NCBI RefSeq assembly: GCF_900459225.1
Contig: NZ_UHFH01000003.1
Location: 1,270,501-1,334,500, forward strand
DNA length: 64,000 nucleotides
Direction of reading: 5' to 3'
From: Streptococcus dysgalactiae subsp. dysgalactiae
GTDB lineage: Bacteria > Bacillota > Bacilli > Lactobacillales > Streptococcaceae
The translations under genes and the position numbers were made by a program. Below, piece by piece: positions 644-32,869 of the stretch (the stretch's first letter is position 1; each line of letters begins with the position of its first letter). The notes beneath the pieces are model-generated. The model worked only from the letters and a program-made list of their open reading frames with translations, was not told the origin of the DNA and did no database searches.

Positions 644-653
644 CGTCCATATT
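644..653. repeat. Left 10-bp target-site duplication of the ICE
   Basis: CGTCCATATT occurs here and again, in direct orientation, at 32860-32869. The two copies directly abut the terminal inverted repeats at 654 and 32859. This is the expected footprint of DDE-transposase insertion. Confidence 0.92.
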
Positions 654-690
654 GTATGTGTCTCAATTTTTGTGAAAATTAAATTTATCC
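654..690 (+). repeat. Left terminal inverted repeat of the ICE
   Basis: Reading inward the end starts GTATGTGTCTCAATTTTTG. The right end, read inward on the minus strand from 32859, starts GTAAGTGTCTAGAGTTTTG. Twenty of the first 24 positions agree, and similarity continues weakly into an A/T-rich stretch. Confidence 0.9.
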
Positions 691-724
691 CTTATCACTC
701 AAGAAAACAAGCCTACTTTTTATG

Positions 725-880
725 AAAAAAGACTGAAACAAGCCATTTTCCCCTTGCTTCAGTCTTGACGTTATCGTGTATGTTATAGTACAATAAGGTT
801 CGACTGATTAAGTCAAGGGACAACTTGCTTAATCGGTGGTGTAGGAGTTCGTCGCTCCTACACCTTTTTTGTTTTTGACA
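725..880 (-). ncRNA. Candidate structured small RNA, about 150 nt, minus strand
   Basis: A promoter at 886-914 (TTGCAT, 17-bp spacer, TATAAT) would start a transcript near 880. It runs through a perfect 10-bp hairpin (838-864), a bulged 11-bp hairpin (806-834) and an intrinsic terminator with 13 of 14 arm bases paired (729-766) followed by TTTTTT. The only possible frame is a seven-codon one near the 5' end without a ribosome-binding site. It overlaps a plus-strand RNA candidate (801-870) completely. I do not recognise an Rfam family. Expression is inferred from signals only. Confidence 0.5.
801..870 (+). ncRNA. Candidate 70-nt antisense RNA, plus strand
   Basis: TTGACG (765-770) and TACAAT (789-794) with an 18-bp spacer predict a start near 801. 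The transcript would contain the hairpin GATTAAG/CTTAATC (806-834) and end at a textbook terminator: GGTGTAGGAG, seven-base loop, CTCCTACACC, then six T (838-870). It is fully complementary to the minus-strand RNA candidate, as in plasmid copy-control or type I antitoxin pairs. No coding capacity is visible. Confidence 0.45.
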
Positions 881-885
881 TTGTT

Positions 886-914
886 ATTATAGCATTCTTA
901 TAGACTAAATGCAA
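886..914 (-). promoter_or_regulatory. Promoter of the minus-strand small RNA near the ICE left end
   Basis: TTGCAT at 909-914 and a perfect TATAAT at 886-891 are separated by exactly 17 bases on the minus strand. It points toward the ICE left end and trpX, but the terminator at 725-766 should stop it before leaving the element. Confidence 0.65.
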
Positions 915-928
915 GTGAATACACGACA

Positions 929-961
929 AAAAAGCCCTAAAAATCAACTTTTTAGCGGTTT
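929..961 (-). terminator. Weak terminator downstream of the transposase
   Basis: CTAAAAA and TTTTTAG form a short stem followed on the minus strand by GGGCTTTTTT, 25 bases after the transposase stop. The stem is AT-rich, so termination may be partial. Confidence 0.5.
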
Positions 962-985
962 TTCCTGGTTCGCATCTTCTCGTAT

Positions 986-2266
986 CTAATGCTTAATAAT
1001 GACTGCCCCATGGGGATAATGATCAACTAAATGGCCTACTCCTAAACGTGTTCCTTTATATTCTTCGTACCGTTTGCGCCAATCACCAAAGAATAAATTT
1101 TCTAATTGATCGATTCTCTCCAAGAGGATTAACTTAGCCATCGCATAAGCCCCCTTAAGACTCCAATACATTCCTCGATGTTTCATACGATACGTGACTT
1201 TCCGATGTTGCGACTCCATAACACCAATTCCTCTTGACGCTAAACCTCTTAACTTAGCCGGCTTAGTATCCTTAAAGTTCCTAAAGAGTTTTTGTTTAAA
1301 GGCAATCAAACGCTCATACTCTTCTTCACTCGTAACCAGTGATTCTGTTGTATCAAAAACAGTTCGTAATAATGATTTTCGATGTGTTTCGATAGCCTTA
1401 AACGCTAAATCTCTTAATAGTTTAGGATAGGGTTTAAAAAACTGTTTTAGACTATCATTTAGGTGATAACTATCCCAAAAATGTTCATGATGTTTAATTC
1501 CCAGTGCTTTCTTAATTTCCTGAAAGGCACGTCTCGTGTAACCTTTACCGTTATCTGAATTTGTCACAAGCAACGTTTGATCTGTTAGTTCAAAATGATT
1601 ATAGAGATAATCAAGCAGCTCTGACATTGCTTTATCGTAATTGGTATGAATAATCTCGTGCTTGTTTTGCAGGATGTAGCGGTTTTTGCCAACCTTTTTA
1701 GAGCCTGTATGGATAAGGAAATGGGCCAGGTCCGTATTATGTCGTTCATCTTTTCCTGAAGTTGTTTTTACCATCACACCATCCCCTTCAATACAGAATT
1801 GTTGTACCTTTAATTTATGTGGTGATTCTTTTTCAACAAAGAAGCGATAACGCTCTCGTTCAAAAAAGAGATTCTCGGCCATTTTAACAGCTTTTAAAAC
1901 CGTATCTTTAGTAATACTCAAGCGGTAAGTATCACGAACCGAACGACAAACTTCTCTGTAAGACATCTTAGAGGCTAGCTTAGCTAATTGAAATAGCAAC
2001 TCTGGAGAATAGCGCAGATACTTCTTTAAACCTAGCCATTCATCTACGGGATAACGTGTCTTTTTCCCTTTACACCATCTATTTCTTGAGAAAGTCATTT
2101 CTCCAAAAGTAAAAAGGACTGTTCGTTCTGGGGCGTCAATTCTTCGATATCCATTCATACGCATCGTTGATGCGACTTGCTTATCATAAGCTGCCACTTG
2201 CTTTAGAAAGGCTAGTTCACTTTGTCTATTACGCTCTACTAAAAAAGTTTTTTCATCAAATCTCAT
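986..2266 (-). CDS. DDE transposase, ISLre2/UPF0236 type (ICE recombinase)
   Basis: This 426-residue protein has the UPF0236/ISLre2 layout. There is a basic N-terminal region with RWCKGKKTRYPVDEWLGLKK, followed by acidic catalytic candidates in CIEGDGVMVK (about residue 158), in LLVTNSDNGKGYTRR (about 240) and in IGVMESQHRKVTYRMKHRG (about 350). These motifs match the DDE core of the Mutator-like superfamily. It is the only recombinase in the element and lies 0.33 kb from the left terminal repeat, so it very likely drives excision and insertion of the whole ICE rather than of a separate IS. No second pair of IS-like ends was found immediately around it. The Shine-Dalgarno is weak. Length is normal for the family and no frameshift is seen. 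Confidence 0.88.
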   Translation of the reverse strand: MRFDEKTFLVERNRQSELAFLKQVAAYDKQVASTMRMNGYRRIDAPERTVLFTFGEMTFSRNRWCKGKKTRYPVDEWLGLKKYLRYSPELLFQLAKLASKMSYREVCRSVRDTYRLSITKDTVLKAVKMAENLFFERERYRFFVEKESPHKLKVQQFCIEGDGVMVKTTSGKDERHNTDLAHFLIHTGSKKVGKNRYILQNKHEIIHTNYDKAMSELLDYLYNHFELTDQTLLVTNSDNGKGYTRRAFQEIKKALGIKHHEHFWDSYHLNDSLKQFFKPYPKLLRDLAFKAIETHRKSLLRTVFDTTESLVTSEEEYERLIAFKQKLFRNFKDTKPAKLRGLASRGIGVMESQHRKVTYRMKHRGMYWSLKGAYAMAKLILLERIDQLENLFFGDWRKRYEEYKGTRLGVGHLVDHYPHGAVIIKH

Positions 2267-2489
2267 AAGTCTATTTTAACTTAAATCAAACATTTTGACA
2301 TCTTACATAAAAAAAGCGATTACATCTATACTGTTTTTTAAAATTGTTATATAATAAAATTATGAATCTGTTATGTATGTGCTGTTATTTTAAATTTTTC
2401 TATAATAAAATTAGTAACCAATCACCTAATTAGTAAGAAGGGGGGTCTAAGCGTTAATAAGGTGAGCTATTATAAAAAGGAGAAACTCC
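2267..2489. other. AT-rich divergent promoter region between transposase and cargo genes
   Basis: This 223-bp gap separates the minus-strand transposase from the plus-strand secreted-protein genes. TATAATAAAATTA occurs twice (2350-2362 and 2401-2413). The second copy provides a TATAAT -10 for the cargo genes with a poor -35 (TGTGCT, 17-bp spacer). The 51-bp spacing of the two copies might mark regulator binding, but nothing more can be proved. Confidence 0.35.
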
Positions 2490-3134
2490 ATGAAGGCAAA
2501 ATCTCTTATCGTATCAATTACATCACTTTTCCTATTAGGAGCCTGCGCCACTGTCTCTGCGGCTGAATATCAGTCAACCACTCCAGATTTATTATCTCCA
2601 GTTATCAATGATAATCAAATTGTAGAAGCTTTACCAGAGGGCGGATTTATTTACAATCTCAATGGAAGCTCGACATTTGATCCTACTATTGTTACAAATA
2701 ATCAAGGGAAGCTAATGTCTTATAAGCAGTACAAAGATACAGAAATTCCTAATAAAGGCATGGTTGACTATATAAACCCTCCAATTTTAGTCAGGTCTGC
2801 CTCTCCTTATAGAGCTACCAATAATCCTAAGATTCTTCCTTTAGGACAAAGCTATCGTTCTCAAGCTTTCTCAGGGTCAGGTTGGCGTTTTTCAGAACTT
2901 AAATTTGAGGCTGCACCGGGAACTGGAACTTGGTTATTTTGGGAATCTGTTGGAGACAGCGGATTAGTTGGAAATGAATATGAAGCTTACCGTACTTATG
3001 AATCTAAAAAACCTGTTTCTAGAGCAGTCATTGAAAACGGTCAAGGAAAGTATGTTAACGGCGAAGGTTCTTGGCTATTCTTCTATACTCATAATCCAGT
3101 TAATGGTTCTTGGTATAGAGTCACTAATAAATAA
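2490..3134 (+). CDS. Secreted protein of unknown function (ICE cargo 1)
   Basis: The 214-residue product starts after a strong AAAGGAG site. It has a clear signal peptide (MKAKSLIV, then a hydrophobic core). The core ends in LLGAC, so lipid modification at Cys19 or cleavage after the later Ala-Ala are both possible. The mature part has no transmembrane segment. It contains aromatic-rich stretches such as SGSGWRFSEL and GTWLFWESVGD, and ends in GSWYRVTNK, suggesting a compact beta-rich domain. I do not recognise a family. It is followed 12 bp later by a second secreted protein, and together they form the only plus-strand cargo operon of the ICE. RD2 elements also carry two adjacent secreted proteins, by my recollection. 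Confidence 0.75.
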   Translation: MKAKSLIVSITSLFLLGACATVSAAEYQSTTPDLLSPVINDNQIVEALPEGGFIYNLNGSSTFDPTIVTNNQGKLMSYKQYKDTEIPNKGMVDYINPPILVRSASPYRATNNPKILPLGQSYRSQAFSGSGWRFSELKFEAAPGTGTWLFWESVGDSGLVGNEYEAYRTYESKKPVSRAVIENGQGKYVNGEGSWLFFYTHNPVNGSWYRVTNK

Positions 3135-3146
3135 GGATATATAATT

Positions 3147-3659
3147 ATGAAAAATAAGATTTCTTTAGGCTTAGGAGTAGGATTACTATTGTGTCCTCTG
3201 GTTATTTCTCAACAGACTTTCGCCTCAACTGAACAACAAGTAACACAAGAAACCACAGCAGTAGAAAAAAATCTCCCAAAAGAAGGGACACTTACAAGAA
3301 GCTTTGAAATCCCCCTAACTAAAAAAATGACGGTCAAGGATGTCTATAAAGTGGACCTTAATAATCGATCCGTAAAAAATTTAAAGAAAAAAGCTAAAAA
3401 AGACCCTTACTTGATTAATTCTTTTCTTGCTCATCCAGATACAGTATGGGTCATTTGTCATGGTGGTGGAATAGACTTCAGCTATGATATGCGTACTAAA
3501 TTCGGCATTGAAAAAGTTAATTTGGCAGATGGAAAAGTCATTGACAGGGATGATGAACCAATCACAGTTGGTGCAGTCAAAAAATTATTAATGGATCTTG
3601 ATAATCAAATTATTGATTATTCTAAAGTTGTTCCATCAGATAACACATTGGTTTATTAA
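3147..3659 (+). CDS. Secreted protein of unknown function (ICE cargo 2)
   Basis: The 170-residue product begins with an N-terminal signal peptide (MKNKISLGLGVGLLL) that probably ends after QQTFAS. A Thr/Glu-rich linker follows, then a basic, soluble C-terminal domain with NRSVKNLKKKAKKDPY and DTVWVICHGGGIDFSYDM. Cys, His and acidic residues are close together there, but no catalytic signature is certain. It is co-transcribed with the preceding secreted protein and ends at an intrinsic terminator. The ribosome site is weak (AAGGATAT), suggesting coupling to the upstream gene. No homologous family is recognised. Being secreted and ICE-borne, it could act on host or competitor, but that is speculation. 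Confidence 0.72.
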   Translation: MKNKISLGLGVGLLLCPLVISQQTFASTEQQVTQETTAVEKNLPKEGTLTRSFEIPLTKKMTVKDVYKVDLNNRSVKNLKKKAKKDPYLINSFLAHPDTVWVICHGGGIDFSYDMRTKFGIEKVNLADGKVIDRDDEPITVGAVKKLLMDLDNQIIDYSKVVPSDNTLVY

Positions 3660-3935: not shown

Positions 3936-5567
3936 TTATCGTTGACGAGTTTTTGATTGGTGATACTTATGGTCATAGCGTTCCTCCATTTCGTTCGCAA
4001 AATCGTAGTCCGTCACAATACGATTACGACGTTCCAACAGAGTTTCACGTTCAATTTGTAGTTCTTTAATCTCTTTACGTATCAGATGACGCTCAGTTGC
4101 ACTGCTAACTTTAGCTTTTTCTAAAATAGCCATAGTGACTACAGACGGGATTAATTCATCCTGATAATCGGACAAGGCACCTAGTACTTTATTTAGATAG
4201 GCGATCTTATCATCCAACGCTGTCAAGGTTTTATCCGTTGCTTCTAGTTGCTCTAAAAAGCGTTCTTGCATTTCCTGAAACTGTTTGGAATTAGTAACCT
4301 TGTTAATGGCTAAGAAATTAAATTCTTCAACTAATTGATCTAATTTGGAAATTTGGCTATTTTTAGTTAGAATGACTTCTCCATTTTGACTAGCTAATTG
4401 TTTGATTAGAGTTGTTCCTTTGATAAAACGGTTTTGTTCCGAGTGATCCGCATTCAAAAAGTAAAAGAAATCATTTTTCTTTAGATAAGCCGTAAAGGTT
4501 CCATCTTCATTTTGGTCTAGCATACGAGCTGAAATAGAAACTGTTCCTTGTCGGTCTAAGCCAAAAGTGATTGGGACATGAATAGATTTTGTCGTTAAGC
4601 GGGAAATTTGCCAGGGCTCAATAATAACTTTCATTTCAAAGTCTTCTGCTTTCTTAGCCTGTTCTTCATTGTACTTTTCTTTGATATTATCCAAGTTATA
4701 AACTACTTCATTAAATGACAATCTCTCTTCAACTTTTTCAAGACTGTACTTGCCTTTTTTAGACAGCGTTCTATCTCTGACTGGCCGCTGTTGAGGCTGA
4801 TCAGCTAATCGATAAGTGACGTACTTACCATTGGTATCTATTTGTAAGTTCAAAGCTTTAGCTTTTTGTAAGAGGTCTTGCTTATCAAGTGAATGTCTTA
4901 TCAGAAAATCTAAGCGTTCCTTTATCTCAAAACGGAAATTATGTTGACGCCGCCAAGCAGAATAATCAGTATAAGAATTTCTTAGTTTGGGTTCTAAAAT
5001 TTTAGCCCCGTACAATTCCGCATATTTATCTGAAATATGTTCTAAACTTTTCTTCGTACCTTTTTGCCAACGAAATTTTTTTAGGGTTACTTCATTGGTT
5101 GTATTAAAAATAATATGATTGTGTAAAAAACCTTTATCGACGTGTGTCGCTACAACAAATTGGTAATCTCCTCCTGTAAATTCTAAGGCTGTTTTTCGAC
5201 CAATTTCATTCACTTCTTCAGGTGTCAAATTGTCATCTGGTGAAAAGGATTGAACGATATGATGCGCCAAGACACGATTATCATTTTTCAAATCTGACAA
5301 GGTGTCATTATCATAGAGGTCATCAACTGACTGTTTCAATAAAATGAAATCATCATAAATGGCATCACGGTCGCTTGAGTCAATGAGGTGATGGCCTGAA
5401 ATCAATTTCTTGTGAACCTCACCATCTACCGTTAGCGTATAATCAAAAGCATCATCTTCATCATGTTGCTCAACTTTCATAAGAGTCGCATCATCACGTG
5501 TGATATAATCAATGGCTCGTTTTAAGTTTTTAGTTTGTTTGATTTGAAAGACTTTGGTCACTACCAT
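3936..5567 (-). CDS. Relaxase (MobA/VirD2 family, PcfG-like)
   Basis: The 543-residue product would nick oriT and pilot the strand through the T4SS. The ATG at 5565-5567 (MVVTKVFQIKQTKN) is preferred over one 13 codons upstream, because AAAGGAGG precedes it and relaxases of this family usually begin this way. The family motif THVDKGFLHNHIIF is near residue 140. Its paired histidines bind the metal, and the nucleophilic Tyr is probably one of the Tyr residues in the N-terminal 30. The C-terminal half is helical and charged. The gene overlaps mobC by 38 bp, the usual pcfF-pcfG arrangement. It is followed by the ParB-like remnant. Confidence 0.92.
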   Translation of the reverse strand: MVVTKVFQIKQTKNLKRAIDYITRDDATLMKVEQHDEDDAFDYTLTVDGEVHKKLISGHHLIDSSDRDAIYDDFILLKQSVDDLYDNDTLSDLKNDNRVLAHHIVQSFSPDDNLTPEEVNEIGRKTALEFTGGDYQFVVATHVDKGFLHNHIIFNTTNEVTLKKFRWQKGTKKSLEHISDKYAELYGAKILEPKLRNSYTDYSAWRRQHNFRFEIKERLDFLIRHSLDKQDLLQKAKALNLQIDTNGKYVTYRLADQPQQRPVRDRTLSKKGKYSLEKVEERLSFNEVVYNLDNIKEKYNEEQAKKAEDFEMKVIIEPWQISRLTTKSIHVPITFGLDRQGTVSISARMLDQNEDGTFTAYLKKNDFFYFLNADHSEQNRFIKGTTLIKQLASQNGEVILTKNSQISKLDQLVEEFNFLAINKVTNSKQFQEMQERFLEQLEATDKTLTALDDKIAYLNKVLGALSDYQDELIPSVVTMAILEKAKVSSATERHLIRKEIKELQIERETLLERRNRIVTDYDFANEMEERYDHKYHQSKTRQR

Positions 5568-5913
5568 GTTGTTTGGCAACCTCCTTTGTTTTAAATTCTT
5601 GGACAATCATCTGTTGGAGTTCTTTGACTTCTTCTTGTAAAGCTTTAAATAGCTCCTGGTCAATTTCCTCAAAAGTGTTCACGTAACGAACCAGCTGGTT
5701 GATATTTTGACCAATGCGATTGACTTCAATCCGTAGTTGACGCAATTCAGAATAGTCATACCTTTCAATTTTACCCTCAAGTAACATCTTTAAAGCGTAA
5801 GCTTGAAAGGTTTTCTTTCCTGATAACGTAATCCGATGACGTAACTTATCAGCTTCACTATAGTTCGTTGAAAACTTGAAAACAATAGGCCTAGTTCTCT
5901 TCTTTTGTTCCAT
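5530..5913 (-). CDS. Relaxosome accessory protein (MobC family, PcfF-like)
   Basis: The start at MEQKKRTR is chosen for the AGGAAG site just before it, giving 127 residues. The N-terminal half resembles ribbon-helix-helix oriT-binding proteins (RPIVFKFSTNYSEADKLRHR, then a helix). The C-terminal half contains the MobC signature region with LRQLRIEVNRIGQNINQLVR, then acidic coiled coil. Such proteins recruit the relaxase to the origin of transfer. The gene lies directly downstream of the candidate oriT and overlaps the relaxase gene. Its own promoter should be in the oriT region, because a terminator separates it from the T4SS operon. Confidence 0.88.
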   Translation of the reverse strand: MEQKKRTRPIVFKFSTNYSEADKLRHRITLSGKKTFQAYALKMLLEGKIERYDYSELRQLRIEVNRIGQNINQLVRYVNTFEEIDQELFKALQEEVKELQQMIVQEFKTKEVAKQHGSDQSLSNQTN

Positions 5914-5934
5914 CTTCCTTCTTCCTTTCCTCAT

Positions 5935-6613: not shown

Positions 6614-9600
6614 CTACGGCATCGTAGGTCGATTGTCTTTTTTTACGCTTGATTCCTTTTCTTGAATGGCAGTTTGTGTTCTTGATGTTTTAGCGGCTGC
6701 TAAACTTTGGTAAAAGGGATGAGACTGCTTTTTCATTTCTTGTTTAGTCAATTGTTGGCCTTCTTTATTCAGTGTTACTGTTTGATATTGACTTAACTGT
6801 TGATCAATCCGTTCCATTAAGCTTTTGGCTTCTTCTTGCACGATTTCCAATTGTGCTGTTAAGTTGGCAAGTCCGTCTTTTTCTTTTGACCAGGACGCTA
6901 AATAAGGAAATGACTCTTGACTGGTATCGAATCCTAGATAGTTCGACACAACGTAAGCAATGGATTCTGCTTGAAGTTCTTTCGAACTAATCGTTAGTTT
7001 ACCATCAAAGCGTTCGCTCAAACTTTTTTTATTGTGTAATTCCGAATGAGCCATTTCATGAATCAGCGTTGATAAAGTTCGTTCATAAGACATTCCTCTT
7101 TTAATAACGATTTCATTTGTCTGTGGACTATAGAATCCATCTTCTTGTCCAAGTTCTCTAAATCGAATGGGAACGTTATTGTTATTCTGAGAAATATCTC
7201 TTAAGCTACGATAGACATTTTGGTAGTAGTCTTTATCCAATTGTTCTGGAATAGTTCCCATGGCTTTAGGGAGATTGAGTTTTTTTCCTTCTTGGGGAGA
7301 AACCTGTTTAATGTCAAAGACAGGGACAGGTTTAAAGTAAGTGATGGTCTCCTTTTCTCCCGTTTCGGGATTAAGAATAGGTTTCCCATTCTTATCTTTT
7401 TGAATGACAGATACAGGCGCTTGAATGTAGATTGCTTTTTCACCTTTATTGACAGAGCCATTACGCTTCTTCCACTCTTGGAAAGACGCAACCATTGATG
7501 CTTCTGGAAACTGTGACATAATCAATTGAATATTTCGTGGCGAGTAGTTATTGAAGTGGGCCATCCCTTCTAGGTATTGCTTATAGGTATCACTATCAAA
7601 ATACTGTTTTATGCCGTCTTGCAAGTGTTGATTCAGCGCTGCGGTATTTTTGGCTTTAATCATTTCTGACAAAGTGAAGTCACGTTTATTGGCTTCTTGT
7701 TGCCTTGTCACCTCATTATCAGAAACGTTGGTTGGGTCTGTACCATTTGCCTTTTCGACATTATCTGGAGTCCCATCACCATCACTATCAGAACTAAAGG
7801 GATTGGTGCCTAGAGTGATTTCTTCATCATCGGTTAACCCGTCTCCATCCGAATCTTTAGGATAATTAGTCTTTTGGTTGCCTTTTTCTTGTAAGTTTTC
7901 TGTTTGTATTGGTTCGAGTTCTCGGTTTACAATCATATCTTTTAAGGCCTGTCCGCCGTCCGTAATGTATTGATTGTTAATAGAGAGAATATTAACCTGA
8001 CCATCTTTTTCACTAACGACACCAAGAATAGCCTTATTTGAAGCAACTGACAAATCTGACTCAAGTTTATGTGTCACTTTCATTAATGATGCTGGGAAGA
8101 ATTCACCGTCAACATTCCTAAAAGCAATTAAGACATCACGATCTTCTGTTCGAATCGCCTTAGCTAAATCAAGACGATTCATCCGTTCAACCTCTGATAG
8201 ATCATCAAAAATAAAACTGTTAGCATCTATAACAGCTTTAAAATCAGGTAAAACTTGAATTTTACTAAAGGTCGCTCCTCTGTTAGCAATCATAATATTT
8301 TGATAGCTCCCCTTACCTTCAACAAGGTCAGTAAGTGTTTTGGCAGCAGTTTGGTTTTCATTAATGGCAAACAATCCAATCAAATGAGGGTAGTGTTCCG
8401 GCTTAAAGGAAATTTGAAGAGCTTGTAATTGATTCTCATTTTTGTAAAAATAGGTCACTTGACTGTCTGCTAGCTCTGATTGATACCAGGAGGCATTTTC
8501 CTGGATTTGTGATGCATAACGATTCAATTTATTCAACTCTTTCGTGCTAATTGGGTGATAGCCTTGCTTATAAATTGACTTTTCAGTCTCAGAAATGGTA
8601 AAATGAAGTAAAGATTGAGACTGAGTTTGAGTCGGTGACGGCTCATTCAAAGAACGCTTTAACTGAGCGTTAGGTAGGGGTGCTGCCTCCTGAGACTTCT
8701 CAGGTAAATCCCCGATTGGGTTCTCAGTCTTTTTTGTTTGCCCTTGAATAGTATCAGGGGCTTTTTGTGTATCCTCAGTTTGTAACATTGTTCTTAGTCC
8801 TTTCTTTTGTTTCAAATAATCATTCCAATCCATTTTACTCTGGTATTCTTTCCGTGGTGGGAGGTCTACGGTAATTGGAATGCCATCTTCCTGTAACTCC
8901 TTAATAAAGTTTCGACCTGACTCGTCATTATCAACGGCAATGGTAATCAGATTGGGATTATTTTTAAGGATTTTGGTCGTTTGGTTAATGGCATCTATCG
9001 CTCCTCTAATCGACTCTCTGGGCATAGTTTGAGAATACTGACCACCAGTTAGTAAATCTGCTGTATAGCGACTAATAATCCCTTTTTTGATTCCGTCCAT
9101 AGCCACTAAGCGGACATCCTGTAAACTCTCCTTATGCAGTTCATAATAAGAGAGAAGGTCAATAGGAGCTTCCGTAAATACGAGACGTTTAGGTGTTCCA
9201 ACGTCCAAATGAAAACCTGCTAGACCGTCTGAATGCTTCATGATTTGTTTGAGACGGCCACGTTCAGGATGCTGGACTTTATTTTCAACGATCCCCTGAA
9301 GGCTACCGCCGATCATTCGACCGTCTTCCGCAAAACTTTTAAAGATAATAACAGGTTCAAAATAATCACCCTTTTTCAATGTCGCAGAGCTCATACTACC
9401 TGATGCGAAAACAAATTCAATGGTCTCATCAGATAGTCCCCGTTCTTCTTTTAAATACTGTCGTCCTAAGTCAAAATCGTGATATTCATAAGGGGCGAGG
9501 TAATGCTTAAAGGGTTCTCTAACGTTTGGTGTTACCGTAACCGATTCAAATTGCCCTGTTTCTAAGAAATTGACAGTTTCTCGAAAGCTAGGTTTCTTTC

Positions 9601-9850
9601 CTGTTAGCTCTTCTTGAATGATTTGGACTAAATCAATGGTATTGGTACCCACGCTTCTTGACCACCAACGAAAGGTGTTAGTTTGGGGATAAATATGAAA
9701 ACTGTCGTGTTCGTCCCAATAGAGATGCCCACCTGAACCTTGTTTCAAGTTAATTCCTAGTGAACTCGCAACGGCCACAATATCTATAGCGATGAGTTTC
9801 TGACGTTGCGATTCAAAACGCTGAGATAATAAATCTCTTGTATTTGCCAT
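6614..9850 (-). CDS. ltrC: Multidomain Toprim primase-like / PBECR4 / ArdC metallopeptidase protein (LtrC/PcfD-like)
   Basis: The 1078-residue protein combines several parts. A primase-like N-terminal domain covers about 1-110. A Toprim domain has TEAPIDLLSYY near 225 and AVDNDESG near 305. A middle region (about 410-620) resembles PBECR4, with LDLAKAIRTEDRDVLIAF. A short block of thrombospondin type 3 repeats (about 660-705, SDGDGLTDDEE and SDSDGDGTPDNVE) follows. The C-terminal ArdC/LtrC-like region has a single-stranded DNA-binding module (about 745-860) and a zinc-peptidase motif, LIHEMAHSE, near 932. In pCF10 the equivalent place is pcfD. It may prime the transferred strand in the recipient and counter restriction. 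The calcium-type repeats are unexpected in a cytosolic protein. PBECR4 assignment is from memory. Confidence 0.85.
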   Translation of the reverse strand: MANTRDLLSQRFESQRQKLIAIDIVAVASSLGINLKQGSGGHLYWDEHDSFHIYPQTNTFRWWSRSVGTNTIDLVQIIQEELTGKKPSFRETVNFLETGQFESVTVTPNVREPFKHYLAPYEYHDFDLGRQYLKEERGLSDETIEFVFASGSMSSATLKKGDYFEPVIIFKSFAEDGRMIGGSLQGIVENKVQHPERGRLKQIMKHSDGLAGFHLDVGTPKRLVFTEAPIDLLSYYELHKESLQDVRLVAMDGIKKGIISRYTADLLTGGQYSQTMPRESIRGAIDAINQTTKILKNNPNLITIAVDNDESGRNFIKELQEDGIPITVDLPPRKEYQSKMDWNDYLKQKKGLRTMLQTEDTQKAPDTIQGQTKKTENPIGDLPEKSQEAAPLPNAQLKRSLNEPSPTQTQSQSLLHFTISETEKSIYKQGYHPISTKELNKLNRYASQIQENASWYQSELADSQVTYFYKNENQLQALQISFKPEHYPHLIGLFAINENQTAAKTLTDLVEGKGSYQNIMIANRGATFSKIQVLPDFKAVIDANSFIFDDLSEVERMNRLDLAKAIRTEDRDVLIAFRNVDGEFFPASLMKVTHKLESDLSVASNKAILGVVSEKDGQVNILSINNQYITDGGQALKDMIVNRELEPIQTENLQEKGNQKTNYPKDSDGDGLTDDEEITLGTNPFSSDSDGDGTPDNVEKANGTDPTNVSDNEVTRQQEANKRDFTLSEMIKAKNTAALNQHLQDGIKQYFDSDTYKQYLEGMAHFNNYSPRNIQLIMSQFPEASMVASFQEWKKRNGSVNKGEKAIYIQAPVSVIQKDKNGKPILNPETGEKETITYFKPVPVFDIKQVSPQEGKKLNLPKAMGTIPEQLDKDYYQNVYRSLRDISQNNNNVPIRFRELGQEDGFYSPQTNEIVIKRGMSYERTLSTLIHEMAHSELHNKKSLSERFDGKLTISSKELQAESIAYVVSNYLGFDTSQESFPYLASWSKEKDGLANLTAQLEIVQEEAKSLMERIDQQLSQYQTVTLNKEGQQLTKQEMKKQSHPFYQSLAAAKTSRTQTAIQEKESSVKKDNRPTMP

Positions 9851-19574: not shown

Positions 19575-19635
19575 TGGTCTCCTTTCTTCAAGTGGTATAA
19601 TATCCATAATATCTATGGAATGGAGAAAAAGGTAC

Positions 19636-25700: not shown

Positions 25701-26984
25701 TTGACGCTCTGCTTCTTGTCGAGCTTTAGCATTACGATCACGGATAGCGGCATTTTCGGCTTTGATGCGCTCAATCTCCGCTAATTTTTGTTGGTATTCT
25801 GCTTGTGCTACTTGATTGGTTTGATTCGTTGCTTGACCTGCTTGTTCATTACGTTTACGGATAGCTTCATTTTCGGCTTCAATCTGCTTGATTTCTGCTA
25901 ATTTTGCTTCATAAGCTGCTTGGAGCGCTTGGGTTTGACGCTCTGCTTCTTGTCGAGCTTTAGCATTACGATCACGGATAGCGGCATTTTCGGCTTTGAT
26001 GCGCTCAATCTCTGCTAATTTTTGTTGGTATTCTGCTTGTGCTGCTTGATTGGTTTGATTCGTTGCTTGACCTGCTTGTTCATTACGTTTACGGATAGCT
26101 TCATTTTCAGCTTCAATCTGCTTGATTTCTGCCAATTTTGCTTCATAAGCTGCTTGGAGCACTTGGGTTTGACGTTCTGCTTCTTGTTGGGCCTTAGCAT
26201 TACGATCACGAATGGCAGCATTTCCAGCTTTAATGCGCTCAATCTCTGCTAACTTTTCTTGATAGGTAGCTTGTGCTGCTTGATTAGCTTGATGAGTTGC
26301 TTGATTAGCTTGTTGGTTGCGCTGACGGATAGCTTCATTTTCAGCCTTGATTCGCTCGATTTCAGTTAACTTGGCCTCATAGTCTGCCTTTAATTGGGCA
26401 TTCATAGTATCAGCCGCTTCTTGGGCTTGTTTATTTTGCGCATCTACTTGAGCTTGACCCGCTTCATTTTTTGCCTTAGTATCCGCTTCTCCTTTAGTAT
26501 TAAGAGCGTCAACTCTAGCTTTTTCGTCACGATTAGCTTGATCAATAGCTTTATTTTCCGAAACTGCTTGATTAATAGCAGTTGTATTAGCTTCTTGCTT
26601 AGTTGTAGCTTCTGTTACAGCTTTAGTTTGTTTCTCTAAATCGGCTTGCGCAGATGATAAGCTATCATGCGTGACCTTCTCAGACTGTTTTACAGCAACA
26701 CCTGCTTCCTGAGCTGTTGTGACAGCATTGTCCCATTCAGTGTCGCTCACATCTGATACTAACTCACCTGACTGATGGCCAGCTTGATGAGCTAGCTGTG
26801 TTTGATCAGCTCTTGGAGGTGTTTGTAGCGTTGTTAAGTTAGTCGCTGGGTTTAAAGAAGTTACATCATCCGCAAAAGCTGTCGATCCCAACGTCAAAGC
26901 CCCTGCTAAAACAATACCACAAACAAGACCATAGGCCTTTGTTTTTCTAAAATAGCCATAACCCTTAGTTTCCATTTGTTTCAT
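22701..26984 (-). CDS. Antigen I/II family cell-wall-anchored adhesin (AspA/BspA-like)
   Basis: The 1427-residue surface protein has a YSIRK-like signal peptide (KGYGYFRKTKAYGLVCG). An Ala-rich helical region carries 78-residue repeats (to about 535). A V region follows (about 538-710) that is short for the classical family. A Pro-rich region has 40-residue repeats (about 711-850), then C-terminal domains with the antigen I/II isopeptide-type pattern (about 866-1390). It ends in LPSTG at 1396-1400 with a hydrophobic tail and KKRQ. Antigen I/II proteins bind salivary and host glycoproteins and other bacteria. In conjugative elements the related PrgB promotes mating aggregates. Neighbouring LPXTG genes and the T4SS below suggest that double role. 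No frameshift. Confidence 0.93.
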   Translation of the reverse strand: MKQMETKGYGYFRKTKAYGLVCGIVLAGALTLGSTAFADDVTSLNPATNLTTLQTPPRADQTQLAHQAGHQSGELVSDVSDTEWDNAVTTAQEAGVAVKQSEKVTHDSLSSAQADLEKQTKAVTEATTKQEANTTAINQAVSENKAIDQANRDEKARVDALNTKGEADTKAKNEAGQAQVDAQNKQAQEAADTMNAQLKADYEAKLTEIERIKAENEAIRQRNQQANQATHQANQAAQATYQEKLAEIERIKAGNAAIRDRNAKAQQEAERQTQVLQAAYEAKLAEIKQIEAENEAIRKRNEQAGQATNQTNQAAQAEYQQKLAEIERIKAENAAIRDRNAKARQEAERQTQALQAAYEAKLAEIKQIEAENEAIRKRNEQAGQATNQTNQVAQAEYQQKLAEIERIKAENAAIRDRNAKARQEAERQTQALQAAYEAKLAEIKQIEAENEAIRKRNEQAGQATNQTNQVAQAEYQQKLAEIERIKAENAAIRDRNAKARQEAERQTQALQAAYEAQLSAYQQALQAKKEAENKAIDQVVFGIDAKANGVDNAEYGNSIMTVTTQPDGTFVFKHDMIDGVKTIGHGTLTGKINHHYEANKDGSITAYIDSVTFDKYEYQNVAKNDAVDKNIAFRILSATGQELFVKAHDGDKTFSETLNKTVSLKLTYQLKPHEAVKDIKVFQLHDDWVHDTHGSALVSYTNNNDAVPHVEVPDKPVQPDIVTPKVEQEKPVPEAPQKPTDGVPNLEKEKPVPPTPVKPEAVKPALEQEKPVPEAPQKPTDDVPNLEKEKPVPPTPVKPEAVKPVLEQEKPVPEAPQKPTDDVPNLEKEKPVPPTPVKPETVKPDLKSFTPEIYNPIKPVVKPHVTVPEKVVYEVMVHPVQVKQTPTNVKSVTNSDQVNIDGQLVPKGSTVTWELVNTSLKAGRQDITSYELTDPLPDGFELDVTATQTFSPDWVITTDEAGKVSLKASQTLLEHFNAKRDQEAEVPKVSLVGRLLNDAGTYHNTFKTVVTTPTGSYMVTSNTPVIYTPGNDPKTPRNPGGDNPTPHDNLIQPTKTIVDDKGQSIDGKSVLPNSTLTYLAKQDFDQYKGMTAAKESVMKGFIYVDDYKDEAIDGHSLVVNSINAANGDDVTNLLEMRHVLSQDTLDDKLKALIKASGISPVGEFYMWVAKDPAAFYKAYVQKGLDITYNLSFKLKQEFKKGDITNQTYQLDMGNGYYGNVVVNHLPELTVHKEVLDQDGKSIQNGTVKIGDEVTYKLEGWVIPAGRGYDLTEYKFVDHLQHTHDLYQKDKVLATVDITLSDGMVISKGSDLAQYTETVYNKETGQYELAFKQDFLAKVVRSSEFGADAFVVVKRIKAGDVTNEYTLYVNGNPVKSNKVTTHTAEPPQPVTPKAPALPSTGEQGVSVLTVLGAGLLSLLGLVGLKKRQ
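24481..24840 (-). repeat. Three 120-bp repeats coding for the proline-rich region of the adhesin
   Basis: Units start near 24481, 24601 and 24721 and each encode about 40 residues around EKEKPVPPTPVKPEAVK and EQEKPVPEAPQKPTDDVPN. Copies differ by few substitutions. The exact period permits gain or loss of units by recombination. Confidence 0.85.
25439..26376 (-). repeat. Tandem 234-bp repeats of the Ala-rich stalk of the adhesin
   Basis: The same phase marker occurs at 25441, 25675, 25909 and 26143, giving an exact 234-bp (78-codon) period. The first two full units look identical and the third differs slightly. A more diverged copy lies beyond 26143. Each unit contains KLAEIKQIEAENEAIRKRNE and KLAEIERIKAENAAIRDRN. 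Near identity suggests recent recombination. Confidence 0.88.
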
Positions 26985-28417: not shown

Positions 28418-30763
28418 TTACTCGGCTTTCTTTTTAACAGAGACTAGGCCAAGGAGCGAGATGATAGTCATTCCTAATAGGCTTAAAAGTGATAAGGATT
28501 GCTCACCTGTCTGAGGAAGGCTACTTTGTGAAGTAGCGACAGTATCAAGAACCTTTTGATGGCCTTGCTTGACCATCGGTTGTGCACTAACAGAGGAAGT
28601 GTTCATTGTCTGTGATGATGTTTCTTCTGTTCTCACTGCTACAGCATCAGCCAACTGTGTTGTCCCAGACACGTAATCTGTTACATGTCCTACTTCATTG
28701 ACCACAGGAACAGCTTCTTCTCCTTTAGCGTTAAAAGCATCAACCCTAGCTTTTTCATCACGATTGACTTGAGCAATAGCTTTGTTTTCTGCCATCGCTT
28801 GATCAATAGCTGTTGTGTTAGCTTCTTGTTTGGTTGTCGCTTCTATGACAGCTTGATAGGCTTTAAAGATGGCTTGATACTGTGCTGTTAGGTCAGCCTC
28901 TTTGGCTTGCAAGGTTTTTAAGGTCTCAAGTTCTTGTTCTAAACGAGCACTTGCTTCACTGAGAACCGCCTTAGCTTGGTTTACTTTGTCTTGACTGTCT
29001 TGTCTCAGTTTTGTCACTTGCTTAAGATTCGTCACATAAGCCTGTTTTTGGGTGAAGTCAGCCTTAGCCTGTTCAACTGCTTTTGTCGCACGGCCAAGAT
29101 TTTCTTGAGCTACTGAAAGCACTTGAGTTAACTGTTCTAAGCTTTTCTCTTGAGTTGCTAGCTCCGTTTGAGCTTTAGCTAGGTCATCTTGTTTAAGGGT
29201 TAGATGTTCTTGAGCTTGCTTAAGATTAGCTGTTTTCGTTTCTAGGTCTTGTTCTGCTAATTTAGCCGTTTGTTTAGCCTTATCCAACATATCTTTGGCT
29301 GTGACTAAGTTAGCCTTAGCTGCAGCTAATTGTTCTTTGGCTTGTGAGGTTTGAGCAACAACTTGTTCTAAGGCTTCTACATTCGCTTCTGCTTGTTTAA
29401 CAGCTTGCTTAGCTTCATCTAAGCCTTCATTAGCTACTGCTTTTGCCCTTTCGAGCTGTGCCATTTTTTGAGTTGTTATTTTAAAGAAAGGTACTCCAAC
29501 CTCTGCTGTGTCAATAGCATCACGACTTTGTTCATTCCAAAGGTTAGCTACAGGATACCAACCAATATTTGCTTTTTCATATGGATCGTAGACATAAGTA
29601 TTTCCATTTGAGTACCCACGCAAGACAATTTCATGACTATATTGTGGTCCCCAAGGACTAAATTTATTATTCTGTACTGCGGCCAAAACATGATGACCTG
29701 CTTGTAAAGCTGCAATAATAGTTGATTGACTATCTAAATGTGTTGAAGCAAAGCCATAATGATTAGTAGCAGCTACAAGTCCTTTACCGCTCGTGCCTCC
29801 ATAATGTTTATTAAACTCATCTGTGTTATGCCATAAGTAATCAGCAATCTCAGTCGGTGTCACCTCTCTTTTAGCCAGCTCTGAAAAAACCATAGCCAAA
29901 GCACTAGGTACACAACCAGTTGCTGCAAAGGTTTGATTACCATAAGCTTTTTGCCACTCGTTATCTCTTTGGTTAAAGTAAGTGCCATTTTCAACAGGTT
30001 TGGTCAGACGCTCTGCTTCAATCGCAGCCATGACTTGTTCTAGAGTTGTTTGTTTTTCTGCTAACTCTTGTGACTTAAGGTCAAGCTCTTCTTTAGCATG
30101 ACTCACATCAGACTCATGTTTTGCATCTGCTTCCTGAGCCTGAGAAACTTGTGTTTCTGCTTTCGTAACCGCTTCTTGAGCCTCTAACACTTTTTCTTCC
30201 GCTGCACTGACATCAACGGCTTGATTAGTTGTCGTGAAAGCTGCCTTAGCATGATCAACAGCTTGAGTAGCACTTGTCACTGCAGCTTCTTTCTCAACAA
30301 CTGCTTGAGACGCTTTGACAACTGTTTCTTTTTGATGGTCAACTGCTGTTTGGGCTTTTGATTCAGCCTCTTGAACTGCTTCAAGTTGTGCTTGTGCATC
30401 AGTAACAGCATTTTGACTAGCCTCAGCCTCTTCTTGGGCTTTTGTTAGACCTTCTGGCGTTGCTTCACTGGCTAGTTTTTCGGCATCATTAACTGCTATT
30501 GTCGCATCAACTAAAGATTGTTGGGCTTGAGTTTTTTCTGCTTCAGCAGCTTTCACTGTAACTTCCTGATCCTTAACGGCTTGAGTGGCCTCATCAGCTT
30601 TTGCTTTGACATCAGCTACTTGATTTTCTGTCACTTCCGTATGTGTCACAACTTCAGCTGCTTTAGCTGGTCTTGTATTTGATAAATCATCTGCCTGCAC
30701 AAGACCTGTGCCTGTCGATAAAGCTGCGACTGCTATTCCTGTTAATACTTTTGTTTGTTTCAT
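28418..30763 (-). CDS. LPXTG-anchored coiled-coil protein with C39-type cysteine peptidase domain
   Basis: The 781-residue surface protein has a signal peptide (MKQTKVLTGIAVAALSTG). A long Ala/Glu/Lys coiled coil follows, then a peptidase C39-like domain at about 255-430. It continues with a second long coiled coil and an LPQTG signal at 749. The catalytic set is visible: Cys in AATGCVPSALAM (about 282), His in YSHEIVLRGY (about 378), Asp in YVYDPYEKA. Topology equals that of PrgA of pCF10, a surface-exclusion protein that also trims the adhesin, but with a different enzyme domain. About 42 residues near 640-680 match the N-terminus of the neighbouring adhesin. AAAGGAG precedes the ATG. Confidence 0.85.
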   Translation of the reverse strand: MKQTKVLTGIAVAALSTGTGLVQADDLSNTRPAKAAEVVTHTEVTENQVADVKAKADEATQAVKDQEVTVKAAEAEKTQAQQSLVDATIAVNDAEKLASEATPEGLTKAQEEAEASQNAVTDAQAQLEAVQEAESKAQTAVDHQKETVVKASQAVVEKEAAVTSATQAVDHAKAAFTTTNQAVDVSAAEEKVLEAQEAVTKAETQVSQAQEADAKHESDVSHAKEELDLKSQELAEKQTTLEQVMAAIEAERLTKPVENGTYFNQRDNEWQKAYGNQTFAATGCVPSALAMVFSELAKREVTPTEIADYLWHNTDEFNKHYGGTSGKGLVAATNHYGFASTHLDSQSTIIAALQAGHHVLAAVQNNKFSPWGPQYSHEIVLRGYSNGNTYVYDPYEKANIGWYPVANLWNEQSRDAIDTAEVGVPFFKITTQKMAQLERAKAVANEGLDEAKQAVKQAEANVEALEQVVAQTSQAKEQLAAAKANLVTAKDMLDKAKQTAKLAEQDLETKTANLKQAQEHLTLKQDDLAKAQTELATQEKSLEQLTQVLSVAQENLGRATKAVEQAKADFTQKQAYVTNLKQVTKLRQDSQDKVNQAKAVLSEASARLEQELETLKTLQAKEADLTAQYQAIFKAYQAVIEATTKQEANTTAIDQAMAENKAIAQVNRDEKARVDAFNAKGEEAVPVVNEVGHVTDYVSGTTQLADAVAVRTEETSSQTMNTSSVSAQPMVKQGHQKVLDTVATSQSSLPQTGEQSLSLLSLLGMTIISLLGLVSVKKKAE

Positions 30764-30800: not shown

Positions 30801-31127
30801 TTAATTGTCAGTAACTGGCTTTGATAAGACTTGGAAAAAGGTTGACCAAACCTCCATGACAAAGTGCTTTTGACCATCTTTTTCGTAGTTGCGAGTTCGT
30901 AGCTCACCTTCAAGACTCATCAGAGTTCCTTTGTCGGTCCAACTAACAAGATTTTCAGCAGCTTTTCCCCAAATGATACAGGGAATGAAATCTGCCTCAC
31001 TTCCTGACCCGCCTGCTTTCTTTTTACGGTTAATCGCTAGGGTAAAGCGAGCATAGGTTTTCTTATCAGGTGTTTGATAAAGTTCTGCTTTCTTGGTCAG
31101 TCGTCCAATTAAGTTTGTGTTATTCAT
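30801..31127 (-). CDS. ssb: Single-stranded DNA-binding protein, short form
   Basis: The 108-residue protein is an SSB OB-fold: MNNTNLIGRLTKKAELYQT, FTLAINRKKK, FIPCIIWGKAAENL and GTLMSLEGELRTRNYE. It lacks the disordered linker and acidic DDDIPF-type tail of housekeeping SSB. ICE-borne SSB proteins protect the transferred or replicating strand. It lies between repA and the surface-protein genes, as prgE lies among the pCF10 surface genes. AAAGGAG precedes the start. Confidence 0.9.
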   Translation of the reverse strand: MNNTNLIGRLTKKAELYQTPDKKTYARFTLAINRKKKAGGSGSEADFIPCIIWGKAAENLVSWTDKGTLMSLEGELRTRNYEKDGQKHFVMEVWSTFFQVLSKPVTDN

Positions 31128-31138: not shown

Positions 31139-32110
31139 TTAGTTTCCATAAAGCATTTCAGCTTGTTTATGCGCTACGATTTTAGCCTCCAATCGCCGTT
31201 CTTCCTTGAGGTTTTCAAGCATCTTCATGAGATAAGCTAGAGGATGATCACAGTCATAAGGTACTCGCTCAATCATATCGATCACTTCATGACTTGTGAT
31301 ATACTCTTGTGTCAAGTACTGACCAATCATCATTTTTTGCTTATGCGTTAAACTATAATTTTGAGAATCTCCTGTAAAGAGGTCAATCTGACAAAACTTG
31401 CCGTTATACCTGTCCGCAATAACTTGTAAGAGGGAATAATATTTAGGCGGAACATACGTCACAGAATTTGCTTGAGAAGAGGTGTTATCAGTTTCAGTAG
31501 GTTGTGGCCATTCATCAGAATTGGGCACAGCCTTTCTAGAACTATTATTATCTTTACTAGAGTTAGTATTACTAGTATTAATATAATTCGGGTCAATATT
31601 TTTGACTGGCCCCGTCAATTTTTTTGACCCCCCCGGTAAACTATTTTTACTGGGGGTCTTTTGACGTTGTTCTTGTCTTTTTTGAAAGGCTTTCTCTTGG
31701 CGTTCAATACGTTCTTGTTTGTATTTTTCAGCATCATAGGTCATGACATTGCCTACATAAATACGATTAGCCACTTGTCCGTCCGCATTAGAATACTGAT
31801 TAACTTCATAGATTAAGCCATAGTCCGCTAGAGCGTTTTTTAGCTTGATTGCTTTGGGTTTGGAGCAATTAAAATAACGTTGAATCTCCGCATTTGAAAA
31901 CTGAATATAAACACGTCCTACTTCATCTACCCAACCATTCTTAGCAGAGAGTTCTAAACGATTCTTCATCATGCCATAAAGCGTTTTGCCATCTGATACC
32001 AAGTTTTGGTAATGAGTATCTTCCCAAAGTACCCAAGGCATCCTAAAAAAACTTTCAGATGTTTGCATTTGTTCTAGCGTAATCGCTGAAAATTGATCTA
32101 AACCAGTCAT
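31139..32110 (-). CDS. repA: RepA_N family replication initiator
   Basis: The 323-residue protein has the RepA_N winged-helix domain in residues 15-115, with ESFFRMPWVLWED, LYGMMKNRLELSAKNGWVD, GRVYIQFSNAEIQRYF and NCSKPKAIKLKNAL. A central low-complexity region contains candidate iterons in the DNA. The C-terminal domain (about 215-323) resembles the species-linked part of these initiators. RepA_N proteins start theta replication of Gram-positive plasmids and are found in TnGBS elements, allowing the excised circle to replicate. It overlaps no other gene and starts after GAGGGGTGA. Confidence 0.9.
   Translation of the reverse strand: MTGLDQFSAITLEQMQTSESFFRMPWVLWEDTHYQNLVSDGKTLYGMMKNRLELSAKNGWVDEVGRVYIQFSNAEIQRYFNCSKPKAIKLKNALADYGLIYEVNQYSNADGQVANRIYVGNVMTYDAEKYKQERIERQEKAFQKRQEQRQKTPSKNSLPGGSKKLTGPVKNIDPNYINTSNTNSSKDNNSSRKAVPNSDEWPQPTETDNTSSQANSVTYVPPKYYSLLQVIADRYNGKFCQIDLFTGDSQNYSLTHKQKMMIGQYLTQEYITSHEVIDMIERVPYDCDHPLAYLMKMLENLKEERRLEAKIVAHKQAEMLYGN
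31592..31656. other. Candidate replication origin (iterons) inside repA
   Basis: Two near-identical dyads, GTCAATATTTTTGAC (31592-31606) and GTCAATTTTTTTGAC (31614-31628), lie 22 bp apart. A larger GGTAAACTATTTTTACTGG dyad follows, flanked by C7 and G5 runs (31628-31656). They lie in the linker-coding part of repA, the usual origin site in RepA_N replicons. Confidence 0.65.
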
Positions 32111-32114
32111 GGTG

Positions 32115-32294
32115 TCACCCCTCGAAAACTCTTAAATGAAAATTGCCATTACCAGAAAACTGAATCGTCTTTTCTACTTCTAGCCATTCTAAGGCTTTAA
32201 GGACTCTTTCTCTTGGCCAACCTGTTTGTTTCATGAGGTCGACGACCATCATATTTTTGGTTAATTGTGCCATCGAAGATTGTTTTGATGCCAT
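32115..32294 (-). CDS. Small helix-turn-helix-like protein upstream of repA
   Basis: MASKQSSMAQLTKNMMVVDL starts after AAGGAG (ATG 32292-32294), giving 59 residues. The middle, KQTGWPRERVLKALEWLEVE, looks like a winged-helix recognition segment, and IQFSGNGNFHLRVFE would be the wing. It is directly upstream of repA, so a role in repA expression or copy control is likely but not shown. Confidence 0.65.
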   Translation of the reverse strand: MASKQSSMAQLTKNMMVVDLMKQTGWPRERVLKALEWLEVEKTIQFSGNGNFHLRVFEG

Positions 32295-32361
32295 AAATTC
32301 TCCTTCCCTTTCAACTCTCACCTTAGTATTCACATACTATTTTCTAATTGATTTACTTCTC

Positions 32362-32652
32362 TCAGGTTCCGTCTCTAGCATGTTGGTAGTATGGGTAAGT
32401 GCCGTGTTTATTTTTAGGACTCCGTTCATGAATGACTCCATCTCTCTCTACTTCTAAAAGCAAACTGGAGGAATTGTAATAATAGCCACTACACAGCCAA
32501 ACTCTATTTAGGTCATCATACGGTGATTCTTTTACTTCTTCAGTAAAATCCTTAGTATCTTTAGCTACTACTTCTTCCTCGTTATCAAGATCTATTACTT
32601 CAAATATTTCTAAGGTGTCTATATCCATAACTATTTCTAAATTGTTTGACAT
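32362..32652 (-). CDS. Acidic protein of unknown function at the start of the ICE operon
   Basis: The 96-residue protein is very acidic in its first half (IDTLEIFEVIDLDNEEEV). Its second half is aromatic with WLCSGYYYNSSSLLLEVER. It has no signal peptide. GAAAGGT precedes the ATG. It is the first gene of the long minus-strand ICE transcript. A promoter-like TTGACC with a poor -10 lies at about 32690-32710. Acidic proteins in this place can be DNA-mimic antirestriction factors, but similarity was not recognised. Confidence 0.6.
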   Translation of the reverse strand: MSNNLEIVMDIDTLEIFEVIDLDNEEEVVAKDTKDFTEEVKESPYDDLNRVWLCSGYYYNSSSLLLEVERDGVIHERSPKNKHGTYPYYQHARDGT

Positions 32653-32784
32653 TCATTAATACCTTTCTACTCGTTTAAAGCATAACTGCTCAAATTAGGG
32701 GTCAAGTGGTTACAAGTTTATCAATTGAGGCATTACTGAGAGAAATCACTTTATCCTTGGTTTCAATAATTATGACAAACGAAA
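32653..32784. other. Non-coding stretch before the first minus-strand ICE gene
   Basis: No gene is present. It should hold the main promoter of the repA-transfer operon. The best candidate on the minus strand is TTGACC with TATGCT 15-16 bases downstream, which is weak. Confidence 0.35.
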
Positions 32785-32808
32785 AAGAGAACGATTTCTC
32801 GTTCTCTT
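32785..32808 (-). terminator. Terminator just inside the ICE right end
   Basis: A perfect 10-bp stem AAGAGAACGA/TCGTTCTCTT with a four-base loop is followed by TTTTTC on the minus strand. It would stop transcription entering the ICE from the rqcH side. Confidence 0.75.
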
Positions 32809-32822
32809 AAGCTATAAGGATA

Positions 32823-32859
32823 TTTAATTTTTTCGTTTCACAAAACTCTAGACACTTAC
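32823..32859 (-). repeat. Right terminal inverted repeat of the ICE
   Basis: Read inward on the minus strand it starts GTAAGTGTCTAGAGTTTTG, matching the left end at 654 in 20 of 24 positions. The exact 10-bp duplication follows immediately at 32860. Confidence 0.9.
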
Positions 32860-32869
32860 CGTCCATATT
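32860..32869. repeat. Right 10-bp target-site duplication of the ICE
   Basis: CGTCCATATT, identical and in direct orientation to 644-653. It overlaps the -35 region of the rqcH promoter, so that region is regenerated by the duplication. Confidence 0.92.

Follow-up and report, generated by a model that had tools for sequence, protein, structure and literature searches.

Element Ends and Insertion Site

The window analyzed in this study is a 64,000-nucleotide (64-kb) stretch of Streptococcus dysgalactiae subsp. dysgalactiae (contig NZ_UHFH01000003.1 of assembly GCF_900459225.1, positions 1,270,501 to 1,334,500), in which a putative integrative and conjugative element (ICE) of 32,206 bp occupies positions 654–32859 between two divergent promoters. 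To its left is a minus-strand gene for an ABC substrate-binding protein (1–352, PF04392), cut by the window edge, for which the name trpX is only the label of an earlier sequence-only reading of this DNA; to its right, an rqcH-like (NFACT) gene starts from the ATG at 32925 on the plus strand (32925–34577, PF05833). The trpX promoter has its −35 hexamer (TTGCAA) at 631–636 and its −10 hexamer (TATAAT) at 609–614, both on the minus strand with a spacer of 16, and a trpB leader motif (RF04312, 406–515, minus strand; 59.2 bits against a gathering threshold of 59) lies between this promoter and the ABC-protein gene. On the rqcH side, an extended −10 was read from the sequence (TGGTATAAT, 32889–32894, plus strand). 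Both hexamers of trpX survived the insertion intact, as did the extended −10 of rqcH. The transposase-side end of the element faces the trpX promoter (TTGCAA-16-TATAAT), with the −35 hexamer 17 bp from the element end and 7 bp from the target-site duplication. Elements of the TnGBS family insert with their transposase-side inverted repeat (IRr) adjoining a promoter (PMC3942029), and the insertion described here, 17 bp upstream of a sigma-A −35 with IRr on the promoter side, falls within the published 15–17 bp.

The sequence-only reading had placed a direct repeat, CGTCCATATT, at 644–653 and 32860–32869, adjoining inverted ends that agree at 20 of 24 positions, and this was confirmed to the base. 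The window holds exactly these two copies of the 10-mer, both on the plus strand, and two copies occurred in 0 of 100 shuffles of the window. The inverted ends are the transposase-side repeat at 654–677 (plus strand, IRr of the family) and the distal repeat at 32836–32859 (minus strand, IRl of the family), which reads GTAAGTGTCTAGAGTTTTGTGAAA inward. When all 63,027 pairs of direct 8-mer repeats lying more than 500 bp apart in the window were compared, the best flanking inverted repeat belonged to a pair within the CGTCCATATT repeat (19/24, shifted), with the runner-up at 17. The termini at 654 and 32859 are identical to those of the family, and an IRr terminus of GTATGTGTC or GTTTGTGTC was counted by hand in 20 of 26 related loci.

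The junction of trpX and rqcH in relatives had been proposed as a check, and two close relatives keep a single-copy empty site there. A 300-bp left-flank query found matches in 26 of 118 streptococcal genomes, the host among them, and the 653-bp left and 641-bp right flanks were then compared with the 25 other loci, both flanks being matched in 16. In G044 (locus L029), the flanks meet with an overlap of exactly 10 bp, a single CGTCCATATT; this is the predicted empty site, CACTTTCGTCCATATTTTTA, with one substitution outside the 10-mer. G091 (locus L030) has an empty site too, with CGTTCATATT, which differs by one substitution in the 10-mer, and its similarity ends 61 bp into the right flank. 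Four more distant loci were aligned, in which the flanks are still together and the intervening sequence has diverged.

Between the ends, 28 chosen open reading frames (ORFs) were scanned with Pfam, and the DDE transposase, RepA_N initiator, conjugation genes and relaxase that had been named from the sequence were recognized by profile matches. The transposase (986–2266, minus strand, PF06782) belongs to the ISLre2/p-MULT3 family, scoring 227 bits against the NCBIfam ISLre2 model NF033529 (cut-off 200), and is present in one copy in the host genome; a homologue labelled S. dysgalactiae (P0013) is 92% identical. This homologue and the relatives with the empty site point to a host of the pyogenic group, and its genome gave no match to the Cas9 model TIGR01865. 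Its proposed catalytic triad, D162, D238 and E351, is at least 98% conserved in 73 aligned rows, of which 71 are relatives and the other two are the window transposase and a partial copy of it (L028). The minus strand also encodes a MobP-type relaxase (3936–5606; PF03432, PF20874, PF11083), a VirD4-type coupling protein (9889–11934, PF02534), a VirB4-like ATPase (16886–19291; PF01935, PF19044) and a RepA_N replication initiator (31139–32110; PF06970, 3.3e-25). In line with the earlier remark that there is no integrase, none of the 28 ORFs matched an integrase or resolvase family in Pfam; the one exception is the transposase itself, which resembles the rve integrase core weakly and below the cut-off.

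Duplication Lengths in Related Elements

The length of the duplication and its spacing to the promoter go beyond what the sequence-only reading had noted. In the portions of the published descriptions available to us, TnGBS duplications are given as 8 or 9 bp (PMC3942029) or as 8 bp (PMC4701971). Since 10 bp falls outside this range, we measured the duplications of related elements, accepting a duplication only when it touched both element ends, a flush contact that fixes its length. An initial group of 24 related elements contained 18 with a flush duplication (16 of 9 bp and 2 of 8 bp). The first set comprised 35 elements including the one in the window, with 8 bp in 5, 9 bp in 27 and 10 bp in 3, and a later set of 27 had 7 bp in 1, 8 bp in 4, 9 bp in 20 and 10 bp in 2. 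Together, the 62 streptococcal elements have one duplication of 7 bp, nine of 8 bp, 47 of 9 bp and five of 10 bp; with 10 bp in 5 of 62 and 7 bp in 1 of 62, we do not read the 10-bp length as excluding the window element from the family. Some elements are short, with about 8–10 kb between the ends (e.g., G084); what defines the set is therefore the transposase together with the ends, and not a complete ICE.

Left out of the first set were G516, which is the same element as that in G107, and one 7-bp pair in G506 that consists of two elements in head-to-tail order; the later set was cleared of three pairs that the first already contained. The later set partly overlaps the first in its sources: some of its elements come from genomes that had supplied others before, and some of its loci had earlier failed because the other end was missing. 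Its pairing was slightly widened while the promoter scan described below was unchanged. The later pairs were matched by the identity of their duplications, which draft assemblies made necessary for 12 of the 27; the remaining 15 had both ends on one contig (hand count). Two of the 12 multi-contig pairs come from the draft genome G099 (L058/L251 and L149/L354). There the duplications of two elements match crosswise from one contig to another, which suggests either that the elements recombined or that the assembly is wrong.

Two further observations were made on these loci. In G506 (L023/L195), two TnGBS-type ends lie head to tail, 7 bp apart, as in a circle junction or a tandem. One promoter type, which combines TAACAT with TTGCCA or TTGATA, is a recurrent target: it received five insertions (G067, L009, L018, L058 and G574), whose duplications are 9 or 10 bp long.

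Spacing Relative to the −35 Hexamer

Promoters at the targets were located with a generic sigma-A scan that is independent of the duplication and allows spacers of 15–19. The −35 hexamer in the first set was 15 bp from the element end in 5/5 cases with an 8-bp duplication, 16 bp in 25/27 cases with 9 bp and 17 bp in 3/3 cases with 10 bp. Measured from the other side, the outer edge of the duplication was 7 bp upstream of the −35 in 33 of 35 elements, a result that occurred in 0 of 200,000 permutations; without the window and with one element per target, it was 30 of 31 (1 of 200,000 permutations). This pattern had already been seen by eye in the first data, and the later set was therefore drawn with the scan unchanged. 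There, the single 7-bp case had its −35 at 14 bp, the 8-bp cases at 15 bp (4/4) and the 10-bp cases at 17 bp (2/2), and the 20 cases of 9 bp were divided between 16 bp (17), 17 bp (2) and 15 bp (1). Thus 24 of 27 later elements obey the same spacing, against 13.7 expected by permutation (1 of 200,000), including 14 of the 15 pairs on a single contig.

For all 62 elements, the outer edge lies 7 bp upstream of the −35 in 57, compared with 34.1 expected and reached in 0 of 200,000 permutations; the expected number is high because 47 elements have 9 bp. Every duplication of another length (15/15) obeys the rule. When the elements were reduced to one per target, 53 of 57 obeyed it against 31.5 expected (0 of 200,000 permutations). 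The same signal appears without any promoter scan, as aligning the 57 targets (one per insertion) on the outer edge gives T 95%, T 96%, G 75%, A 68%, C 60% and A 67% at positions +7 to +12. This TTGACA-like hexamer at +7 carries 6.64 bits when aligned on the outer edge and 4.56 bits when aligned on the inner joint, with at most 4.51 bits in 2,000 permutations of length, and the 14 targets with lengths other than 9 give 8.10 bits and 3.76 bits, respectively. A −10 score of at least 4 was found in 58 of 62 targets, compared with a fraction of 0.031 of 70,602 background −35-like hexamers and 0.071 of the 11,734 AT-rich ones. The presence of a −10 at the targets means that a whole promoter is found, with a joint at a set distance from its −35.

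Two other relationships were considered and set aside. Taking the −10 as the anchor in place of the −35 makes the outer-edge distance vary more (standard deviation 0.67 vs 0.28), in a scan that allows spacers of 15–19. A tie between the 10-bp duplication and a 16-bp promoter spacer fitted the first three cases and did not fit the next two, which have a spacer of 17.

In the published descriptions, as far as the portions available go, the insertion distance is given as 15–16 or 15–17 bp and is not linked to duplication length. With the outer edge fixed at 7 bp, the published spread of 15–17 bp looks like variation in duplication length. The passages of the family literature covered here contain no statement of this rule; Brochet 2009 and Guerillot 2013 lie outside that coverage and may state it.

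Proposed Mechanism and Alternatives

The earlier assignment to the TnGBS family of ICEs is supported by the ends, the duplication, the gene content, the promoter-upstream target, the orientation and the empty sites. We consider it very probable that this is a complete-looking TnGBS2-type ICE, moved by its ISLre2/p-MULT3 transposase and inserted with a 10-bp duplication between the divergent trpX and rqcH promoters through a promoter-docking mechanism. It is also likely that TnGBS and ISLre2 transposases fix only one of the two target-strand joints. This joint, that of the distal end, would lie 7 bp upstream of the −35 hexamer in a complete sigma-A promoter, the probable docking partner being RNA polymerase or sigma-A bound there; the other joint would float 7–10 bp away, so that duplication length and the 15–17 bp distance reported since 2009 would be one variable.

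In DDE chemistry, the 3′ ends of an element join the 5′ ends of a staggered target cut. By this standard chemistry, the fixed edge would be the IRl joint on the template strand and the floating edge the IRr joint. The transposase complex would dock on a sigma-A promoter, the IRl 3′ end would attack the template strand of that promoter 7 bp upstream of the −35, and the target of the IRr 3′ end would be the opposite strand, another 7 to 10 bp upstream, with the duplication length of 7–10 setting the distance from IRr to the −35 at 14–17. The element would presumably excise, pass through a circular intermediate and transfer. Circular forms of such elements retain 6–10 bp of flank between their ends (PMC3942029), and 654 and 32859 therefore need not join directly in the circle.

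Several observations weigh against this account. Five of the 62 elements are exceptions to the spacing (G102, G512, G596 and G641 at 8 bp and G606 at 6 bp), and ISLre2 insertion sequences are less clear: with the same scan, 15 of 23 have the outer edge at 7 bp, and the three with an 8-bp duplication give 7, 8 and −2. Several of the ISLre2 flanks have low promoter scores; of the 38 ISLre2 loci scanned 23 were usable, L157 being left out for a duplication below 8 bp. No duplication was found for 6 of the 24 initial elements, 8 of 13 further loci and 21 of the 51 transposase loci of the later set, and 15 of 28 distal ends stayed unpaired. ParA had no Pfam match in the 28 ORFs, a scan that a distant partition protein could escape. 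TnGBS1 and TnGBS2 carry ParA according to the available part of PMC4701971; we do not take it as defining for the family. Finally, for the window alone, a 9-bp duplication with one extra element base also fits.

That last possibility would make the 10-bp length meaningless, with the duplication really being of the family norm and one extra terminal base happening to equal the target base. In its favor, 47 of 62 elements have 9 bp and a one-base match is expected by chance about 1 time in 4, and the spacing would remain satisfied if only the transposase side had gained a base. However, there are four other flush 10-bp duplications, a true stagger of 10 bp predicts the 17 bp to the −35 that all five 10-bp cases show, and the ends at 654 and 32859 match the family termini, leaving this explanation unlikely. 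Slightly more room is left for a decayed, immobile remnant, given the several small ORFs that lack an assignment and the missing match to ParA. We still doubt it, as the frames of the transposase, relaxase, VirD4, VirB4 and RepA_N proteins are open, with domain coverage or matches in relatives showing them to be full-length, and both copies of the duplication are identical.

Kinship of elements and targets could also, on its own, make distance and duplication length vary together. The elements are related, five of them sit at one promoter type, and all five 10-bp cases have one of two distal-end types (GTAAGTGTCTAGAG) while the single 7-bp case has the other. Yet the rule holds when one element per target is counted, at the same 53 of 57 and 0 of 200,000 permutations, and each end type is found with 8-bp as well as 9-bp duplications, which follow the rule with either type, the five exceptions aside, so that kinship as the sole cause seems very improbable. 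Least credible of all, to the point that we give it almost no weight, is that the 10-bp repeat is a chance repeat or the site-specific att core of an integrase-type ICE. Such ICEs are likewise flanked by direct repeats, but here no integrase family was matched, the ends are terminal inverted repeats of the family type, and the empty site is a single copy upstream of a promoter and not in a gene end.

A transposase that fixes one joint and lets the other float bears on the way in which bacterial transposases locate promoters while sparing genes. Such a rule names the end that is positioned, the base at which it is set and the promoter element that serves as reference, and this makes the question of docking directly testable. 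One passage of PMC3942029 points to the Ty3 integrase with its transcription factors as an analogy. For annotation, the rule for this ICE family is widened to duplications of 7–10 bp, with 9 in 47 of the 62 measured, and one end together with its promoter would predict the duplication length.

Transfer Genes, Cargo and a Possible RNA

Further genes on the minus strand encode a MobC/NikA-like auxiliary protein (5530–5934), a large protein with Toprim, PBECR4, ArdC-N and metallopeptidase-like domains (6614–9850), a DUF3801 protein (11934–12425, PF12687), a VirB1-like cell-wall hydrolase with lysozyme2 and CHAP domains (14150–16846) and a PrgI-like protein just below the Pfam cut-off (19215–19643). 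A single-strand binding protein (30801–31127, minus strand, PF00436) is encoded next to RepA_N.

Two large LPXTG surface proteins are carried within the element, both on the minus strand. The one at 22701–26984 is of antigen I/II (BspA-like) type, with PF18220, PF17998, PF16364 and TIGR04228 above their cut-offs and NF033804 below, and that at 28418–30763 has a C39-like peptidase domain. Two small predicted secreted proteins (2490–3134 and 3147–3659, plus strand) lie adjacent to each other between the transposase and the relaxase as further cargo, with starts that by eye resemble signal peptides. They had no Pfam or NCBIfam match; homologues numbered 12 for the first (one named S. suis, 52%) and 2 for the second, and neither was found in the 15 related stretches compared below.

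An RNA-like unit conserved in relatives (765–870, plus strand) lies close to the transposase-side end, on the inner side, and is oriented convergently to the transposase gene. It has a sigma-A-like promoter (TTGACG at 765, TACAAT at 789) followed by a two-hairpin unit of about 70 nt ending in a terminator. Related loci hold 20 distinct versions, that of the window included, and 4 of the 25 consensus pairs are changed on both sides; the motif used for collection prescribes a portion of each hairpin, which left no room for variation in those columns. An Rfam scan of 765–870 found no family at threshold.

Comparison with Related Elements and Known Systems

The gene comparison covered 15 related stretches. 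Of the 17 ORFs between 3936 and 22435, 15 were matched in both G113 (39–92% identity) and G012 (38–85%). The transfer module is closest to that of G113 (VirB4 92%, VirD4 80%, relaxase 71%), followed by G012 (VirB4 81% over 63% of its length, VirD4 73%, relaxase 71%). Four of the 15 stretches (G110, G072, G009 and G013) have almost none of the transfer genes of the element, indicating that this kind of transposase also serves elements with different transfer modules.

The TnGBS2 family of ICEs in Streptococcus agalactiae is reportedly the subject of Brochet 2009, Guerillot 2013 and Ambroset 2016, and the comparisons support the interpretation of the window element as a probable new member of this type. 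Both have an ISLre2/p-MULT3 transposase, a MobP relaxase, VirD4, VirB4 and RepA_N, and both insert upstream of a sigma-A −35 in the same orientation. The window element differs in its 10-bp duplication (8 or 9 published), in its own cargo of a BspA/antigen I/II-type protein and two secreted proteins, and in having no match to ParA. This likeness is drawn from the published description, and the element compared directly was that of G012 and not TnGBS2 of NEM316. ISLre2 insertion sequences share the transposase family and, in 14 of 23 measured, a 9-bp duplication with the −35 at 16 bp. They are unlike the element in being mostly about 1.6 kb among the loci scanned, and they are not known to have conjugation or replication genes.

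RD2 of S. pyogenes M28 resembles the element as an ICE of a related pyogenic species, and its cargo is of antigen I/II type. As described in the available part of PMC3083328, a tRNA-Thr gene is the site of RD2, whose repeats are imperfect and 16 bp long and whose transfer module is ICESt1/3-like. We rejected identity with RD2, as the window element has a 10-bp repeat and an ABC-protein gene and rqcH as its neighbors, and not a place in tRNA-Thr with 16-bp repeats. A Tn5252-family ICE was rejected as well, with no tyrosine or serine integrase matched by Pfam in the 28 ORFs, and the ICE of a S. canis genome paper is, in the part of that paper available, a different and integrase-borne one. The Mycoplasma ICEs (p-MULT5) are alike in being driven by a DDE transposase with a circular form, and unlike in that insertion of ICEA of M. 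agalactiae is likely random (PMC3942029). The kind of element described here is thus already known, and what is new is a TnGBS2-type member with a 10-bp duplication, whose unusual length exposes a simple spacing rule by which these transposases are positioned at promoters.

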